Origin: Clostridiales bacterium DTU073
GTDB lineage: Bacteria > Bacillota > Peptococcia > DRI-13 > DTU073
Length of the DNA: 50,908 nucleotides
NCBI GenBank assembly: GCA_001512665.1
Contig: LFSF01000028.1
Location: 66,779-117,686, forward strand
Direction: 5' to 3'
Part shown: positions 18,210-50,908 of the stretch, piece by piece
Numbering within the stretch: the first letter of the stretch is position 1
Layout of the letters: each line of letters starts with the position of its first letter
Made by a program: the position numbers and the translations under genes
Notes under the pieces: model-generated
Seen by the model: the letters and a program-made list of their open reading frames with translations, nothing else
What the model was told of the DNA's origin: nothing
Database searches by the model: none

Positions 18210-19691
18210 ATGCAAAAGATTAAAGGGTTTTTTAAGAGGATCTCTTTGCTACTCATTTTAATTTTTATCTGTGTTGTGATCCTCCTAACACCACATGCTG
18301 AAGCTGCTACATTTGAACAAGCACAGGAGTATGGAAAAAGGATGAGTTCAGGTTCATATCATGCACTTGTAATAGATTCTGAGGGAAATGTGATTGCCTG
18401 GGGAAATGACGAATTGTATAGTGTGGTTCCTGAGGGGATATCCAATGTGGTAGATGTTAAGGGTAGTCGGGTTAGTAATGCTGTAATAACGTCAGATGGT
18501 ACTGCTTATATATGGGGTCGTGATTTTAATTCCTCTTTTCATACCGGCAGCTATCGTTTACCCGGTATATATCGAGGTCGTGTTATTGATGTGGGATTTA
18601 CTTATAAACATCCTTATTATGGGGGTTATGATGCAATTTATTTACTTCTATCTGATGGTACTATTGCAGGTGGTGAATATAAATCTACTGCAACGGGAAT
18701 TAGTTTTACGGGAAAGGCAAATTTACCAGCGGAAAATTTTGGTTTTAAGGCACTGGAGTGTGCCGGACATCGTTGCGTTGGGTTAAAAACAGATGGTACT
18801 GTTGAAGTATGGGGAGGACTAATTCAGGAAGAATCTATACATAAAGCACCTAAAGGCTTAAGTGATGTTATAGCCATATCGGCTTCTGATACTCATACTT
18901 TGGCCTTAAAATCTGACGGTACTGTAGTAGCCTGGGGAAGTCCCGCTTATCCTCAAGGCTGGAGAGATATGCCTAAGGATTTAAGTGATGTTGTAGCAAT
19001 ATCTGCTGGTAATAATTACTCTTTAGCTTTACTTAGTGATGGTACTGTTGTGGCTTGGGGGTCTGAACCATATTATCTAAATGTTAAACCTGATGCTTAT
19101 AGTGATTTAGTTATACCTGAAGGATTAAATAATGTTGTAGCCATATCTGCCGGTAATCCGTCTTTTGCTTTACGAAGTGACGGTACTATTGTGGCTTGGG
19201 GTGATAATAGCTACTGGTTCTGGAATTTTCCTGATGACCTTTTCTTAGGACCGGTAGAGGAACCGGAACAGGAGCCTGAACAGGAAGAAGAGCCGATTTC
19301 TAATATACAAATTAAGTCTACAGATGAGACGGCATTAACTAAATGTATACTCAATAGTTCCTTTATTAGCCGGGTTAGCTTTAATTTAGACGAGGCTGTC
19401 AATAGTGCGGAATTAGAATTTTCGCTGCCTTCAAATGTGAGCATTACTTATGTTATGAATGTAAAAAGAGAAGGGAGCTCAGATGTAATTAATGTTGCCA
19501 TACAGGATAACAAGGTAATTATCAGCCAGGAAGGTCAAGAACTTGCTCCCGGCAAATATGAAATGCAACTTTTATTGTATTGCACAAACATGTTTAAGAT
19601 AAACACCAAGTCTTTTAGTGATACTACAGAAGTAATTAATTATTCGAGTACACCTTTGCTTATTGAAGCTCAGGAGCAAATTCAATCCTAA
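18210..19691 (+). CDS. Secreted RCC1-repeat protein with shared C-terminal domain
   Basis: A 493-residue protein starting MQKIKGFFKRI, with a signal peptide (hydrophobic residues 12-28, probable cleavage AEA|ATFEQ). The ATG at 18210 is preceded by AGAGGGGG and is preferred to an upstream in-frame start. Six or seven degenerate RCC1-like repeats follow (DGTVVAWGS and VVAISAGNNYSLAL types) up to about residue 350. An acidic Pro/Glu linker (EEPEQEPEQEEEP) leads to a C-terminal domain of about 120 residues (LEFSLPSNV, ISQEGQELAPGKYEMQ) shared with the gene before it. No LPXTG, SLH or other anchor was recognised, so the shared domain may serve for surface attachment. Confidence 0.78.
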   Translation: MQKIKGFFKRISLLLILIFICVVILLTPHAEAATFEQAQEYGKRMSSGSYHALVIDSEGNVIAWGNDELYSVVPEGISNVVDVKGSRVSNAVITSDGTAYIWGRDFNSSFHTGSYRLPGIYRGRVIDVGFTYKHPYYGGYDAIYLLLSDGTIAGGEYKSTATGISFTGKANLPAENFGFKALECAGHRCVGLKTDGTVEVWGGLIQEESIHKAPKGLSDVIAISASDTHTLALKSDGTVVAWGSPAYPQGWRDMPKDLSDVVAISAGNNYSLALLSDGTVVAWGSEPYYLNVKPDAYSDLVIPEGLNNVVAISAGNPSFALRSDGTIVAWGDNSYWFWNFPDDLFLGPVEEPEQEPEQEEEPISNIQIKSTDETALTKCILNSSFISRVSFNLDEAVNSAELEFSLPSNVSITYVMNVKREGSSDVINVAIQDNKVIISQEGQELAPGKYEMQLLLYCTNMFKINTKSFSDTTEVINYSSTPLLIEAQEQIQS

Positions 19692-46389: not shown

Positions 46390-47931
46390 TTGTTAGCCCG
46401 CGTTTTTAGTTGTACTACTGTAGGCATGGAGCCATATTTGATCGAAGTAGAAGTAGATGTTTCCGGTGGACTTCCTGAATTTACGATTGTAGGTTTACCA
46501 GACACTACAGTAAAAGAGAGTAAAGAAAGAGTAAGGACAGCAATTAAAAATGCAGGTTTTGATTTTCCACCCAGAAAGATTATTGTTAATCTTGCCCCTG
46601 CTGATATCAAAAAAGAGGGACCTGGATTTGATTTGGCTATTGCTATAGGAATACTTGCGGCAACCGGACAATTTAAGGCGGAAAATTTAGACGATTATGT
46701 ATTTGTCGGAGAATTGTCGCTTGATGGTTCGATTAGGGGTGTACCGGGTATTTTGCCGATGGCCCTGTTTATTCATAAGGAGACAAAGAAATCTTTCGTT
46801 GTGGCTCAGGATAATGGTAAAGAAGTAGCGTTAACTCCTGTTACTGCTTATTGTTTTGCTAGTTTGTTAAAGGTCGTAGAGTTCTCTGAAAATCCACAAT
46901 TCTATCGTAAAGTAGAACAACAAAGTTTAGAAGACTTTTTTAAAACGAAGCAGGAGGTAGTTTTTGATTTAGCAGATGTTAAAGGACAGCATTTGGCTAA
47001 GCGTGCTTTGGAAGTTGCCGCTGCAGGGGGACATAACTTATTACTCATAGGTTCTCCGGGGTGTGGAAAAAGTTTGTTAGCGAAGTGTTTGCCTTCCATT
47101 CTACCTCCACTTACTCCTGCAGAAGCTTTGGAAGTAAGTAAGATCTATAGTGTTGCCGGGCTGTTAAACAAAGAGAGTCCGCTCATAACCTGTCGCCCCT
47201 TTAGAGCACCACATCATACAGGTTCGGTTGCTAGTATTATTGGCGGAGGGGTTATTCCTAATCCCGGTGAAGTTACTTTAGCTACGCATGGGATTCTATT
47301 TTTAGATGAATTGCCGGAGTATCGACGGGATGTCTTGGAGTCTTTAAGACAGCCATTAGAAGATAGGATTGTAACAATATCCAGGGTTTCGGCAGTGATT
47401 ACTTATCCGGCCAAATTTCAATTAGTAGCTGCTGCAAATCCCTGTTATTGTGGTTATTATGGTGACGGCCTAAAGGAATGTACTTGTACTCCTTATCAGG
47501 TTAATAAATACCGGAATAAAATTTCCGGACCGTTACTTGATCGTATAGATATTCAAATCGAAGTGCCTAGATTGAATTATCAAGATTTGGTCGATAGAAA
47601 AAAAGAAGAAAGTTCTTGGGAAGTACAAAGAAGAGTGAGTAAAGCACGGCAAAGGCAGTTAGAACGTTTCGCAGGACAGGGTATAAGTTGTAACGCTCAG
47701 ATGGGTGGAAAAGAAGTTAGGAAATATTGTCAATTACAAGATGAAGCGAAAAATTTATTAAAAAAAGTATATGACAAATTGGGGTTAAGTGTACGTGCAC
47801 ATGAGCGAATTTTAAAAATAGCCCGTACAATAGCAGATCTTGCTGGTAGTGATGAAATTAATATTATTCATCTTGCAGAGGCTTTACAATATAGGGCTTT
47901 AGATCAAAGCAACAGTATTCGTGAGTATTAA
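46390..47931 (+). CDS. comM: ComM/YifB family Mg-chelatase-like ATPase
   Basis: A AAA+ helicase-like protein of 513 residues; ComM promotes branch migration during natural transformation, and close relatives occur in non-competent species. It has an N-terminal Lon-protease-like fold (GGLPEFTIVGLPDTTVKESK near 31), Walker A LLIGSPGCGKSLLAKCLPSI near 220, FRAPHHTGSVASIIGGG near 273, Walker B GILFLDELPEYRRDVLESLR near 303, and zinc-like cysteines CYCGYYGDGLKECTC near 355. TTG start with GAAGGGGTG upstream. dprA, its frequent neighbour, is not seen next to it. Confidence 0.93.
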   Translation: MLARVFSCTTVGMEPYLIEVEVDVSGGLPEFTIVGLPDTTVKESKERVRTAIKNAGFDFPPRKIIVNLAPADIKKEGPGFDLAIAIGILAATGQFKAENLDDYVFVGELSLDGSIRGVPGILPMALFIHKETKKSFVVAQDNGKEVALTPVTAYCFASLLKVVEFSENPQFYRKVEQQSLEDFFKTKQEVVFDLADVKGQHLAKRALEVAAAGGHNLLLIGSPGCGKSLLAKCLPSILPPLTPAEALEVSKIYSVAGLLNKESPLITCRPFRAPHHTGSVASIIGGGVIPNPGEVTLATHGILFLDELPEYRRDVLESLRQPLEDRIVTISRVSAVITYPAKFQLVAAANPCYCGYYGDGLKECTCTPYQVNKYRNKISGPLLDRIDIQIEVPRLNYQDLVDRKKEESSWEVQRRVSKARQRQLERFAGQGISCNAQMGGKEVRKYCQLQDEAKNLLKKVYDKLGLSVRAHERILKIARTIADLAGSDEINIIHLAEALQYRALDQSNSIREY

Positions 47932-47948
47932 TGGAGGTACTCAGTATA

Positions 47949-48521
47949 ATGGAATTTTTTCAATCTTTGTATAAGAAGTACTACCAAAGAGTTTATGGTA
48001 CCTGTTTTTTAATTCTAAAAAATACTGCTTTAGCTGAAGAAGCAACGCAAGATGCTTTTTTGAAAGCGTATACCAATATACACACTTTAAAAGACCCCGC
48101 AAAATTTGGAGCATGGGTAGCGGCAATAGCTACCAAACAAGCTATTAATATATATAATCGTAATAAAAAAGTCTTAACAATTGCTGAAGAAGAATTTATG
48201 GAACAATATCTCAAGTTGAATAATGAACGTCTTTATGAAAATGAACCGTGTAGTCAATATCTTCTTCAGGAAAAGACAGAGGAAATACGTAAAGCAATTT
48301 TATGTTTAACTCCTATACTTAAGCAAATGGTAATTTTAAAGTATTATTGGACATTAACCGATCCTGAAATAGCTCAAGTATTAAAGCTTCCTGTCGGTAC
48401 AGTAAAATCCTCATTATTTCGGGCCAGAAAATTATTAGTTAAGAAATTGACTAGTTATCATCAAGAATTTATGGCTAATAAATTAGTAAAGGGTGAGCCA
48501 AATGCGAAAGGAAGAGTTTGA
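47949..48521 (+). CDS. ECF-type RNA polymerase sigma factor
   Basis: A 190-residue sigma-70 family protein with region 2 (YYQRVYGTCFLILKNTALAE, then ATQDAFLKAYTNIHTLKDPA) and region 4 (LTPILKQMVILKYYWTLTDP, then IAQVLKLPVGTVKSSLFRAR), and no regions 1 or 3. ATG 47949 lies 11 nt after GGAGG (47933-47937), while an in-frame ATG at 47931 overlaps the comM stop. The two genes may be read together. It overlaps the next gene by 20 nt, the usual arrangement for a sigma factor with its membrane regulator. Confidence 0.88.
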   Translation: MEFFQSLYKKYYQRVYGTCFLILKNTALAEEATQDAFLKAYTNIHTLKDPAKFGAWVAAIATKQAINIYNRNKKVLTIAEEEFMEQYLKLNNERLYENEPCSQYLLQEKTEEIRKAILCLTPILKQMVILKYYWTLTDPEIAQVLKLPVGTVKSSLFRARKLLVKKLTSYHQEFMANKLVKGEPNAKGRV

Positions 48522-49248
48522 CAATAAAGAATATGATTGTTTAATTAAGGAAAACGTAAAAGCCTTAATTGATCATCTTCCTCCTGTGCATGTTGAAGAA
48601 AAATGGCAGGAATTTGAGAATAGACTGCAAGCAGAACAACAAAAAGAAACTAACAAGCAGATCTCGCTGTTTAGAAAATATCAACGCATGTTTGTTCCTG
48701 TAGCGGTATTTGCTGTGGTTTTCATAATTTTTATCTCGTTAAGCCCGAAAACAGTAATTGGCTTTAAAAATGAGGTGTTTAGGTGGTTTGGGCAAACAGA
48801 GAGTGGTGATGTAGTTATTTCGGAAAGACATAATCCTGAATATAAGCAAGGAATATTTAAAGACCTTAGTTGGGAAGAAGCTAAGGGCATGGTGGTCTTT
48901 GCCTTGAAATCTCCACAGTATGTACCGGCTGATTTTCAATCACCGCCTCAGATAAATGTCGTTTCTAATGAATATCCTCAATCGGTGGTTGTGATTACTT
49001 ATGTTGAAGAAGATAAACGTTTAATTATAAAACAAGAAAATATCCTTAATGAAACAAATCGTAATACTTTTGTGCCCCAAAATGCTGATATTCAAAAGAT
49101 TAGGGTAAATGATAATCTCGAAGTAACTTTGATTAATCAAGAGTCAACTGTACAAGTTTTCTGGACGGAGAACATGATTAGGTTTAATATTATGACCCAA
49201 AATATTGCTGTGGAGGAAATAATTAAAGTAATTGAGGCATTAAAATAG
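48502..49248 (+). CDS. Putative anti-sigma factor, DUF4367-type membrane protein
   Basis: A 248-residue bitopic protein. The cytoplasmic N-terminal 60 residues lack the zinc HxxxCxxC motif of classic anti-sigma factors. One membrane helix follows (RMFVPVAVFAVVFIIFISLS, about residues 62-82). The extracytoplasmic part has a DUF4367-like domain with LSWEEAKGMVVFALKSPQYV then PADFQSPPQINVV near 135-160, and a C-terminal domain of beta strands. ATG 48502 follows AAAGGG. Overlap with the sigma gene and topology suggest it controls that sigma factor; this is inference from organisation. Confidence 0.7.
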   Translation: MRKEEFDNKEYDCLIKENVKALIDHLPPVHVEEKWQEFENRLQAEQQKETNKQISLFRKYQRMFVPVAVFAVVFIIFISLSPKTVIGFKNEVFRWFGQTESGDVVISERHNPEYKQGIFKDLSWEEAKGMVVFALKSPQYVPADFQSPPQINVVSNEYPQSVVVITYVEEDKRLIIKQENILNETNRNTFVPQNADIQKIRVNDNLEVTLINQESTVQVFWTENMIRFNIMTQNIAVEEIIKVIEALK

Positions 49249-49288
49249 GGAGCTGTTGTTTGCTCCCTGTTTTAATGCCTCAATTACT
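49227..49288. terminator. 27-bp inverted duplication forming a shared bidirectional terminator
   Basis: The left arm 49227-49253 covers the last codons of the anti-sigma-like gene and GGGAGC. The right arm 49262-49288 is its complement apart from one T-G pair, with an 8-nt loop. The core AGGGAGC/GCTCCCT followed by GTTTTA acts as a normal terminator. The similarity continues outward (ATTAAAGTAAT on both sides), which is far more than a terminator needs. Confidence 0.8.
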
Positions 49289-49295
49289 CATTACT

Positions 49296-49685
49296 TTAAT
49301 CTATTATATAGTTTCCGGTGTAGGAGGTACGCGTTTCCCCGCCGGCCTTATGGGTTGATTTCACCCGGTATAGACCGGGGCTCAAAGGATACGCTCCCAT
49401 TACATCTAAGGTCATATGGTAATCAGAAGCAGACCATGTTTTAAGAGTTTTCCAAGTACCGTTTTCATATCTTTGTAAACTCATACTAATGGATTGGGAA
49501 TAAAAGTCGACCAAATCGGACCAAGCCGTACAGTTAATATAGTTGCCGTTTTTAGCAATACTCGAGCCATAAGACATAAATACTGAGGAAGCTTGAGCGT
49601 CAATAGTGACTTCCTCCAGAGCTAAGATAGGGGTTGCCGAAAGCACCAAGAGAATAAAAACCAAGATAATCATTTTTTTGTACAT
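49296..49685 (-). CDS. Small secreted protein of unknown function
   Basis: A 129-residue protein with a clear signal peptide (KKMIILVFILLVLSATPILA, cleavage after ALA or nearby) and a mature part of about 105 residues rich in Ser, Thr, Tyr and Trp (YINCTAWSDLVDFYSQSISM, then GTWKTLKTWSASDYHMTLDV), probably all-beta. It looks like the small secreted DUF6147-type proteins of Clostridia, but I cannot confirm the family. It has one Cys. The site GGAGGAG precedes the ATG on the - strand. It converges on the sigma/anti-sigma pair. Confidence 0.75.
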   Translation of the reverse strand: MYKKMIILVFILLVLSATPILALEEVTIDAQASSVFMSYGSSIAKNGNYINCTAWSDLVDFYSQSISMSLQRYENGTWKTLKTWSASDYHMTLDVMGAYPLSPGLYRVKSTHKAGGETRTSYTGNYIID

Positions 49686-49885: not shown

Positions 49886-50887
49886 ATGATGGATTTAAAA
49901 AGGAAAGAGACTCAAATTTTGCGGTCAATGCTTAAACAGATCAGTGTGTTTTTATTAGGTGCTTTTTTATTGGCACAATTAGTAACAAGTCTCTTTTTAT
50001 CTCAGTATTTTTTTCAATTTCATGTAGGCATTGAATTGATTTGTATTTTTATTTCCTTTTTAATTTTTGTGTTAGTGTGGTACACATATGAAAAGAATAC
50101 TTATGTAGAGCATAACATCTGTTTTTGTTTTTTAATGGTAGGATTTTTCGGTATATTACATCTTCTTTTTTACTCATCAGAATTGTCTTTTAAGCAAAAT
50201 AATTTATCTACATGGTATTGGTTGCTGGGCAGATTTTCGCTTGCTCTAACTTTAGTTTTATTTACCGGAGATTTTAAGTTTAAGATTAATAAATATATAG
50301 GGCTTTTTTTCTCTCTTTTTACAGTGAGTTTTGTTGCTCTCGTTTTTTATCATTATTACGATCTTTTGCCTATCCTGTATATTAATGAAGGAGCTAGCAG
50401 GATTAAAATATTAATTGATTGTATGATAATTGTCTTATTTTTGCTTTCATTACATAATTTACGTTTAAAAATTACTCAAAAGGACGTATTAGTTTATAGC
50501 TTTATCATAATTGCGGTTGTTTTGAACTTACTTTCTATGTTATTTCATTCCATTAATTCAGTAATACCTGTTTATCATTTAATGGGACATTTCTTAAAGG
50601 TTGCTTGTTATTTTTTCTTTATGAAGGGTATTTTTGTTAGTGCTGTCAAGTATCCTTATCAAAAAATTGAAAAGCAAAGTAAAACTTTAATTCAAATTCT
50701 TGATGAATTACCTTTAGGTGTTGTGATTTATGATCAAAACTTAAGACTTTTTTTTGCTAATAGAAAGGCACTAGATTTATTGACAGATTCGAAAAAGGAT
50801 CTTTTCGGTATGCATCAACATGAACTTGTGCAAAAACTTGGTCGTATTTGTCAACGCCGGAATATTTTTGACCCAATCGCCGGTTAA
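49886..50887 (+). CDS. MASE3-PAS sensor protein, 3' end cut by an insertion sequence
   Basis: The visible protein has 333 residues. Seven or eight membrane helices (residues about 15-260, with FQFHVGIELICIFISFLIFV near 48) match the MASE3 sensory domain. A PAS domain follows from about residue 270 (LIQILDELPLGVVIYDQNLR and FFANRKALDLL). The frame ends after KLGRI..IAG in DNA that looks like an IS21-like end, so the rest of the PAS domain and any kinase or GGDEF output domain is cut off. It is probably a histidine kinase remnant. The start is ATG 49886 with GGAGTGGATCAGG upstream; the second Met (49889) is possible. Confidence 0.75.
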   Translation: MMDLKRKETQILRSMLKQISVFLLGAFLLAQLVTSLFLSQYFFQFHVGIELICIFISFLIFVLVWYTYEKNTYVEHNICFCFLMVGFFGILHLLFYSSELSFKQNNLSTWYWLLGRFSLALTLVLFTGDFKFKINKYIGLFFSLFTVSFVALVFYHYYDLLPILYINEGASRIKILIDCMIIVLFLLSLHNLRLKITQKDVLVYSFIIIAVVLNLLSMLFHSINSVIPVYHLMGHFLKVACYFFFMKGIFVSAVKYPYQKIEKQSKTLIQILDELPLGVVIYDQNLRLFFANRKALDLLTDSKKDLFGMHQHELVQKLGRICQRRNIFDPIAG

Positions 50888-50908
50888 AAATTGACCCAAA
50901 CGCCGGTG
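50849..50908. mobile_element. Left end of a probable IS21-family insertion sequence
   Basis: From 50849 the sequence reads TGTCAACGCCGG and then shows a 23-bp tandem unit: CGCCGG at 50855, 50878 and 50901, each pair separated by a TTGACCCA block. Repeated terminal units beginning with TGT are characteristic of IS21-family ends, where they are transposase-binding sites. The transposase genes would lie to the right of the window. Confidence 0.6.

Follow-up and report, generated by a model that had tools for sequence, protein, structure and literature searches.

The hairpin at 49227-49288 of the window (the whole stretch of 50,908 nucleotides that was analysed) is probably a bidirectional intrinsic terminator that serves two convergent genes and that gained a longer stem when the polymerase switched template during DNA replication. 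For the outer part of its right-hand side (49279-49295), the best explanation is that the 3' end of the adjoining gene was copied there in reverse. The locus is a natural example of a known mutation process acting on an ordinary terminator, and it is real and well above chance. The features of the region, in window coordinates, are as follows.

47931-48521: ECF-type sigma gene (Sigma70_r2, r4_2), directly upstream of the anti-sigma-like gene
48493-49248, + strand: anti-sigma-like gene with a C-terminal DUF4367 domain (PF14285, E 1.8e-08), 251 amino acids from the listed GTG start
49227-49253, + strand: left arm (inverted-repeat search), made up of the coding 3' end, the stop TAG (49246-49248) and GGAGC
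49242-49273: older inner terminator, AAAATAGGGAGC, loop 49254-49261 and GCTCCCTGTTTT, with the same inner stem in Clostridia bacterium STF2_141 (G002) and Peptococcaceae bacterium UBA5356 (G004)
49262-49288, + strand: right arm (inverted-repeat search)
49279-49288, + strand: putative copied segment CTCAATTACT, the reverse complement of codons in the gene itself; neither the orthologous spacer of G004 nor G002 contains it
49289-49295, + strand: 7-nt insertion CATTACT, a near-repeat of the preceding CAATTACT
49296-49301, - strand: last codon and stop of the convergent gene, GAT TAA, this Asp-stop occurring also in G004 and in Thermoanaerobacteraceae bacterium GB_MAG15_131 (L025)
49296-49685, - strand: convergent gene, encoding a 129-residue protein whose start, by eye, resembles a signal peptide

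The hairpin and its flanking genes

The two arms of the hairpin are 27 nt each, are separated by 8 nt and are complementary at 26 of 27 positions (96%) according to the inverted-repeat search; the 27-bp inverted duplication of the 3' end of the anti-sigma-like gene that was described in an earlier note is thus present where that note placed it. The left arm takes in the final 22 nt of the gene, including its stop codon, and the sole mismatch, between T49246 and G49269, becomes a U.G wobble in the + strand RNA and a C.A mismatch in the - strand RNA. Past the perfect block the similarity between the arms resumes as ATTAAAGTAAT, after the 7-nt insertion on the right side, and runs until the stop of the convergent gene. 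This is the insertion that had been reported in the other arm as AATGAGT, that form and GAGTAAT being rotations of one insertion at 49289-49295. The predicted folds have energies of -54.3 kcal/mol (z -8.5) for the + strand RNA and -46.7 kcal/mol (z -10.4) for the - strand RNA, and in neither case did any of 200 shuffles equal the observed value.

A pattern of this kind might be produced by a chance inverted match, or by a chimera generated during assembly or amplification, and the state of the genome, a draft of 52 contigs in which the present one ends 1.6 kb downstream, would be compatible with an artefact. However, the hairpin has the top score in the window, 24, while the maximum across 562 dinucleotide shuffles of the window was 15, and both flanks continue as orthologous genes that are arranged as they are in relatives, which makes an explanation by chance or artefact extremely improbable.

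The hairpin was placed in a wider context using a sample of 338,506 bases that comprises the window and 17 further stretches of the same genome. It ranks second among the nine hairpins with a score of at least 14, and it is the only one of the nine that contains the 3' end of an ORF. The one hairpin of the sample that is stronger (L035, 19750-19808) has 28-nt arms with one mismatch and a 3-nt loop, and lies about 80 nt past a reading frame ending near 19667, with no ORF of at least 90 amino acids ending within 60 nt of it; long stems by themselves are therefore not unique to the present locus. When the 302 sampled ORF 3' ends are considered, 22 have a hairpin with a score of at least 9 near the stop and four have the stop inside the hairpin. 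The present hairpin is by far the longest of these four and the only one with an arm of more than 12 nt, and it is also the strongest among the 16 convergent pairs sampled. The suggestion that all terminators of this genome are alike was rejected on the basis of these counts, given the scarcity of stops inside hairpins and the arms of at most 12 nt in three of the four cases. At another convergent pair (L034, 833-862) the final 18 nt of a gene lie within a 12-bp terminator stem, so that this kind of overlap is seen there in shorter form.

A mobile or repeated hairpin of the REP or MITE kind was also rejected: a search of the source genome for a second copy returned only the hairpin itself, on both strands, and the inner pattern has no exact match in viral contigs. 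Membership of a known RNA family was rejected because the nine matches to Rfam microRNA and small RNA families all lie below the gathering cut-off, the best being mir-627 with a score of 37.9 against a cut-off of 86.

As for the genes themselves, the label "anti-sigma-like" for 48493-49248 is reasonable, given as it is by position and by a hydrophobic segment judged by eye alone. No Pfam family above the cut-off was found for the convergent 129-residue protein, and its assignment to a known family was rejected, since seven members gave weak Pfam matches only (E at least 0.025, one member each). At the contig end (window 50869-50908) there are two near-copies of TTGACCC..CGCCGG, TTGACCCAATCGCCGG and TTGACCCAAACGCCGG, by which a MASE3 sensor ORF at 49886-50887 seems to be cut short. 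This region resembles an insertion-element end at which the assembly broke; the final 69 bases of the contig have no other occurrence in the source genome assembly.

The inner terminator and its age

Relatives of the two genes were sought in 40 genomes, including the source genome itself (G000). The anti-sigma protein was found in seven of the 40 and the convergent protein in nine, and the two genes adjoin end to end at seven loci, which are spread over six genomes: G000, G002, G004, Peptococcaceae bacterium UBA3937 (G001), Clostridia bacterium SV3-B14.1 (G010) and Clostridiaceae bacterium BRH_c20a (G038). The last of these accounts for two loci, L026 and L028, which are two diverged anti-sigma/convergent pairs in one assembly. 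An eighth end-to-end locus, L025, came from a collection of named genomes, so that the present locus can be compared with seven others. Searches at the level of the order (25 genomes) and the class (46 genomes) returned no further locus, and named genomes queried with the anti-sigma protein alone gave no relative. One further genome, G025, has the anti-sigma gene without any relative of the convergent one; it was for that reason omitted from the comparison of arms. In a tree of both proteins G002 stands beside G000 with a support of 93, and G004 and G001 are weakly grouped (67).

A hairpin is present between the convergent genes at all eight loci, with a sequence that is common only to G000, G002 and G004; those of G001, G010, L025 and the two BRH_c20a loci are different. 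In the three genomes that share it, the inner hairpin is the same and has the TAG in its stem, in the form ttaaaaTAGGGAGC, a short loop and GCTCCCTATTTT, the G of the right arm CTGTTTT being a change private to G000. Since the inner hairpin and its embedded TAG occur in G002 and G004, which belong to two other genera, they are older than the source genus, and the fold-back mutation proposed in the earlier note did not make the terminator, which already stood at the same junction. What survives of that proposal concerns the outer half of the right arm, for which a fold-back is the best explanation in view of the match to the gene's own arm. The note had also named conservation of the full hairpin beside unrelated genes in distant relatives as evidence that would speak against a fold-back. 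No such case was seen among the loci compared: the 27-bp form occurs at one of the eight syntenic loci, namely the present one.

The inner stem GGGAGC/GCTCCC is followed by TGTTTTAAT on the + strand and by TATTTTAAT on the - strand, giving the combination of a GC-rich hairpin and a T-tract in either direction, and AAAA at 49242-49245 and TTTT at 49270-49273 place an A-tract upstream of the stem on both strands. A terminator scan listed the - strand site and not the + strand site. With these tracts, the inner hairpin should be a good candidate for a two-way intrinsic terminator serving both genes. It resembles the usual bidirectional intrinsic terminator of convergent genes in having a GC stem between an A-tract and a T-tract and in its two-way use, but differs from it in that the stop and last codons lie inside the stem and that the stem runs about 15 bp beyond the A/T tracts.

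Origin of the outer right arm

The relatives that share the inner hairpin differ from the source genome in what lies outside it. The stop of the convergent gene in G002 abuts the inner stem, with zero spacer. The stem of G004 extends slightly; its right arm, TTTTAATGC, pairs better with GCATTAAAATAGGG, the left arm of G000 and G002, than with its own GGATTAAAATAGGG. In the interval from the inner stem to the convergent stop, ahead of GCATT, G004 has the spacer GCAAAAATTATAAACTAAAATCA (- strand), while G000 has AGTAATGAGTAATTGAG, which is unlike the spacer of G004 outside its flanks and instead matches the coding end of its own gene, AAAGTAATTGAG. In local alignments the right arm of G000 reaches 20.2 with its own left arm, 15.2 with that of G002, 9.6 with that of C82 (one of the two BRH_c20a arms, C81 and C82), 9.5 with that of G004 and at most 8.0 with the remaining four left arms. 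The acceptor arm thus matches the donor of its own lineage rather than the orthologous acceptor, the right spacer of G004 being unrelated outside the flanks. When the six inner bases that are shared are removed, the own-against-own score of G000 is 16.2, which was reached by none of 5000 shuffles; the corresponding number of shuffles, out of 5000, that reached or exceeded the observed score was 0 in G001, 455 in G010, 497 in C81, 1222 in C82, 1660 in G002, 2401 in G004 and 4923 in L025.

The direction of copying can be read from the conservation of the coding arm. The left arm encodes the C-terminus VIEALK, which corresponds to VIKALK, VINGLK and VIEELK in family orthologues (conserved VIxxLK), and the left arm is therefore the donor and the spacer the acceptor, with copying from left to right. 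Both edges of the new segment have homology to flanking sequence that is older: the right arm TTTTAATGC of G004 ends exactly where the new segment starts, and the shared Asp-stop sits exactly at its end, TTAATC being found at the stop of G004, L025 and G000. The orthologues in G004 and L025 terminate in this Asp-stop too, so that TTAAT is taken as the likely return point and not as copied sequence, and the possibility that the convergent-gene stop belongs to the copy was rejected on the same ground (GATTAA being common to both). The similarity that the earlier note had followed up to the convergent stop accordingly holds for the ATTAAAGTAAT match, but its final TTAAT is more plausibly ancestral. 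A point against the fold-back copy is the shortness of the perfect match that is strictly new: outside the shared GCATT it amounts to 10 nt only, plus ATTAAAGTAAT past the gap.

The outer copy is absent from G002 and G004, both of which are in other genera. If it is unselected, the 15-nt perfect match between the arms is unlikely to predate the split of G000 from G002, since these two genomes agree at only 11 of 40 fourfold-degenerate sites of the anti-sigma gene. The outer stem might instead be old and useful, contributing to termination, to the stability of the 3' end or to a block on antisense read-through, with the right arm having tracked the coding arm by selected point mutations. The occurrence of a hairpin at every one of the eight loci is in line with this idea, as are the differences between the BRH_c20a loci, which keep their pairs (C-G to T-A and A-T to G-C) apart from one A.C mismatch, and the suggestion, made in passages of PMC12207403, that pairing of the A-tract with the U-tract stabilises terminators. 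However, G002 has none of the outer pairs and G004 almost none, so that there is no conserved need for them; they lie past the expected transcript end in both directions; and the divergence of the right spacer of G000 from that of G004 outside the flanks has the form expected of a block replacement. A long-standing selected stem is for these reasons unlikely.

The preferred reading, a template switch, would proceed as follows. The older terminator stem (GCATTAAAATAGGGAGC or similar) would fold in the nascent strand, and the 3' side of the folded stem would prime on its own 5' side. Copying would start past the GC at 49277-49278, where the older stem ends, and the polymerase would copy the last codons of the anti-sigma gene backwards, generating the segment at 49279-49288. 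The 7-nt stutter that follows could be either a slip during this copying or a later tandem duplication, and the strand would return to the normal template at TTAAT, in the stop of the convergent gene, where it would meet TTAATC at 49296-49301. Self-priming of the nascent strand on the older stem predicts exactly the edges that are observed. The 7-nt insertion must be given a separate explanation, and it counts against an account that involves a single copy. From sequence comparison we infer the replication event, its primer, its return point and an age younger than the split from G002; the event would be bracketed by relatives from other genera, the state that preceded it not being seen among them.

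The process itself has precedents. Quasipalindrome mutation, in which the nascent strand serves as template and an imperfect repeat becomes more perfect, is established in E. coli according to passages of PMC7202029, and passages of PMC8794818 propose that template switching creates and maintains RNA hairpins. The present case resembles the thyA and lacZ events in E. coli (PMC7202029) in that an imperfect repeat is perfected by copying from arm to arm, but it is inferred across genera rather than observed, and it involves a terminator repeat with a coding end as donor. It resembles hairpin-making template switching in that one copying event makes or repairs a stem, although the passages of PMC8794818 concern rRNA and microRNA genes, whereas the structure here is a bacterial intrinsic terminator. 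In the yeast template switching reported in PMC8604942 the arms of an inverted repeat at a gene are likewise homogenised, but there the coding sequence is altered, while in the present case the donor is the coding arm and the protein stays as it was. A search of open-licence PubMed Central papers on template switching and terminators returned no description of a terminator lengthened in this way.

A single recent event is not the only form that template switching could have taken. The ancestor of the family may have had an extended hairpin that was re-homogenised or eroded in each lineage, with G001 as a second survivor whose gene end was rewritten. The arms of G001 score 11.8 against each other, which none of 5000 shuffles reached, and the left arm of G002 scores 11.7 against the right arm of G001, which 17 of 5000 shuffles reached; the anti-sigma protein of G001 (L024) has a 3-residue, in-frame C-terminal extension, TEA, which lies inside its different hairpin and is possibly the result of a template switch that rewrote the gene end. 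An older, repeatedly corrected extension also fits the data because the right arm of G001 resembles the ancestral coding end. This cross-genus similarity is short, however, and was noticed post hoc as one of several comparisons (the left arm of G000 against the right arm of G001 gives 10.4, with 132 of 5000 shuffles), and G002 and G004 have no trace of an outer copy beyond GCATT. Recurrent switching from an extended ancestral hairpin is accordingly regarded as quite unlikely.

Termination and the evolution of gene ends

According to passages of PMC12207403, the median distance from the base of the hairpin to the transcript end is 6 nt in three Gram-positive species, and in vitro it is 7-9 nt. 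Transcript ends would thus be expected near 49273-49276 on the + strand and 49239-49242 on the - strand. The outer copied stem is probably a by-product, because it lies beyond these expected ends both ways; its pairs should matter little for termination, and would be transcribed only on read-through. Passages of PMC4824070 report that in E. coli a terminator near a stop codon is almost fully repressed, and the stop codon in the present stem would repress such a terminator if the coupling of transcription and translation were tight. The arrangement fits a Clostridia-like genome that would tolerate the overlap of stop codon and stem, by comparison with B. subtilis as treated in passages of PMC12207403.

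The locus offers a naturally occurring trace of template switching in a bacterial terminator, for which a donor, a primer and a return point can be named, and in which the direction from the donor is fixed because one arm is coding. The case alone changes nothing in the understanding of termination, but it suggests a route by which terminators can lengthen and swallow gene ends, which could be tested by a survey of convergent pairs. A broader proposal, which we consider speculative and rather improbable, is that terminator hairpins at convergent ends act as recurrent self-primers, so that the 3' ends of genes are repeatedly copied into the spacer and C-termini can be rewritten by copying in the reverse direction, as perhaps in the TEA extension of G001. 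If this were true, terminators in bacterial genomes would both arise from template switching and drive it.
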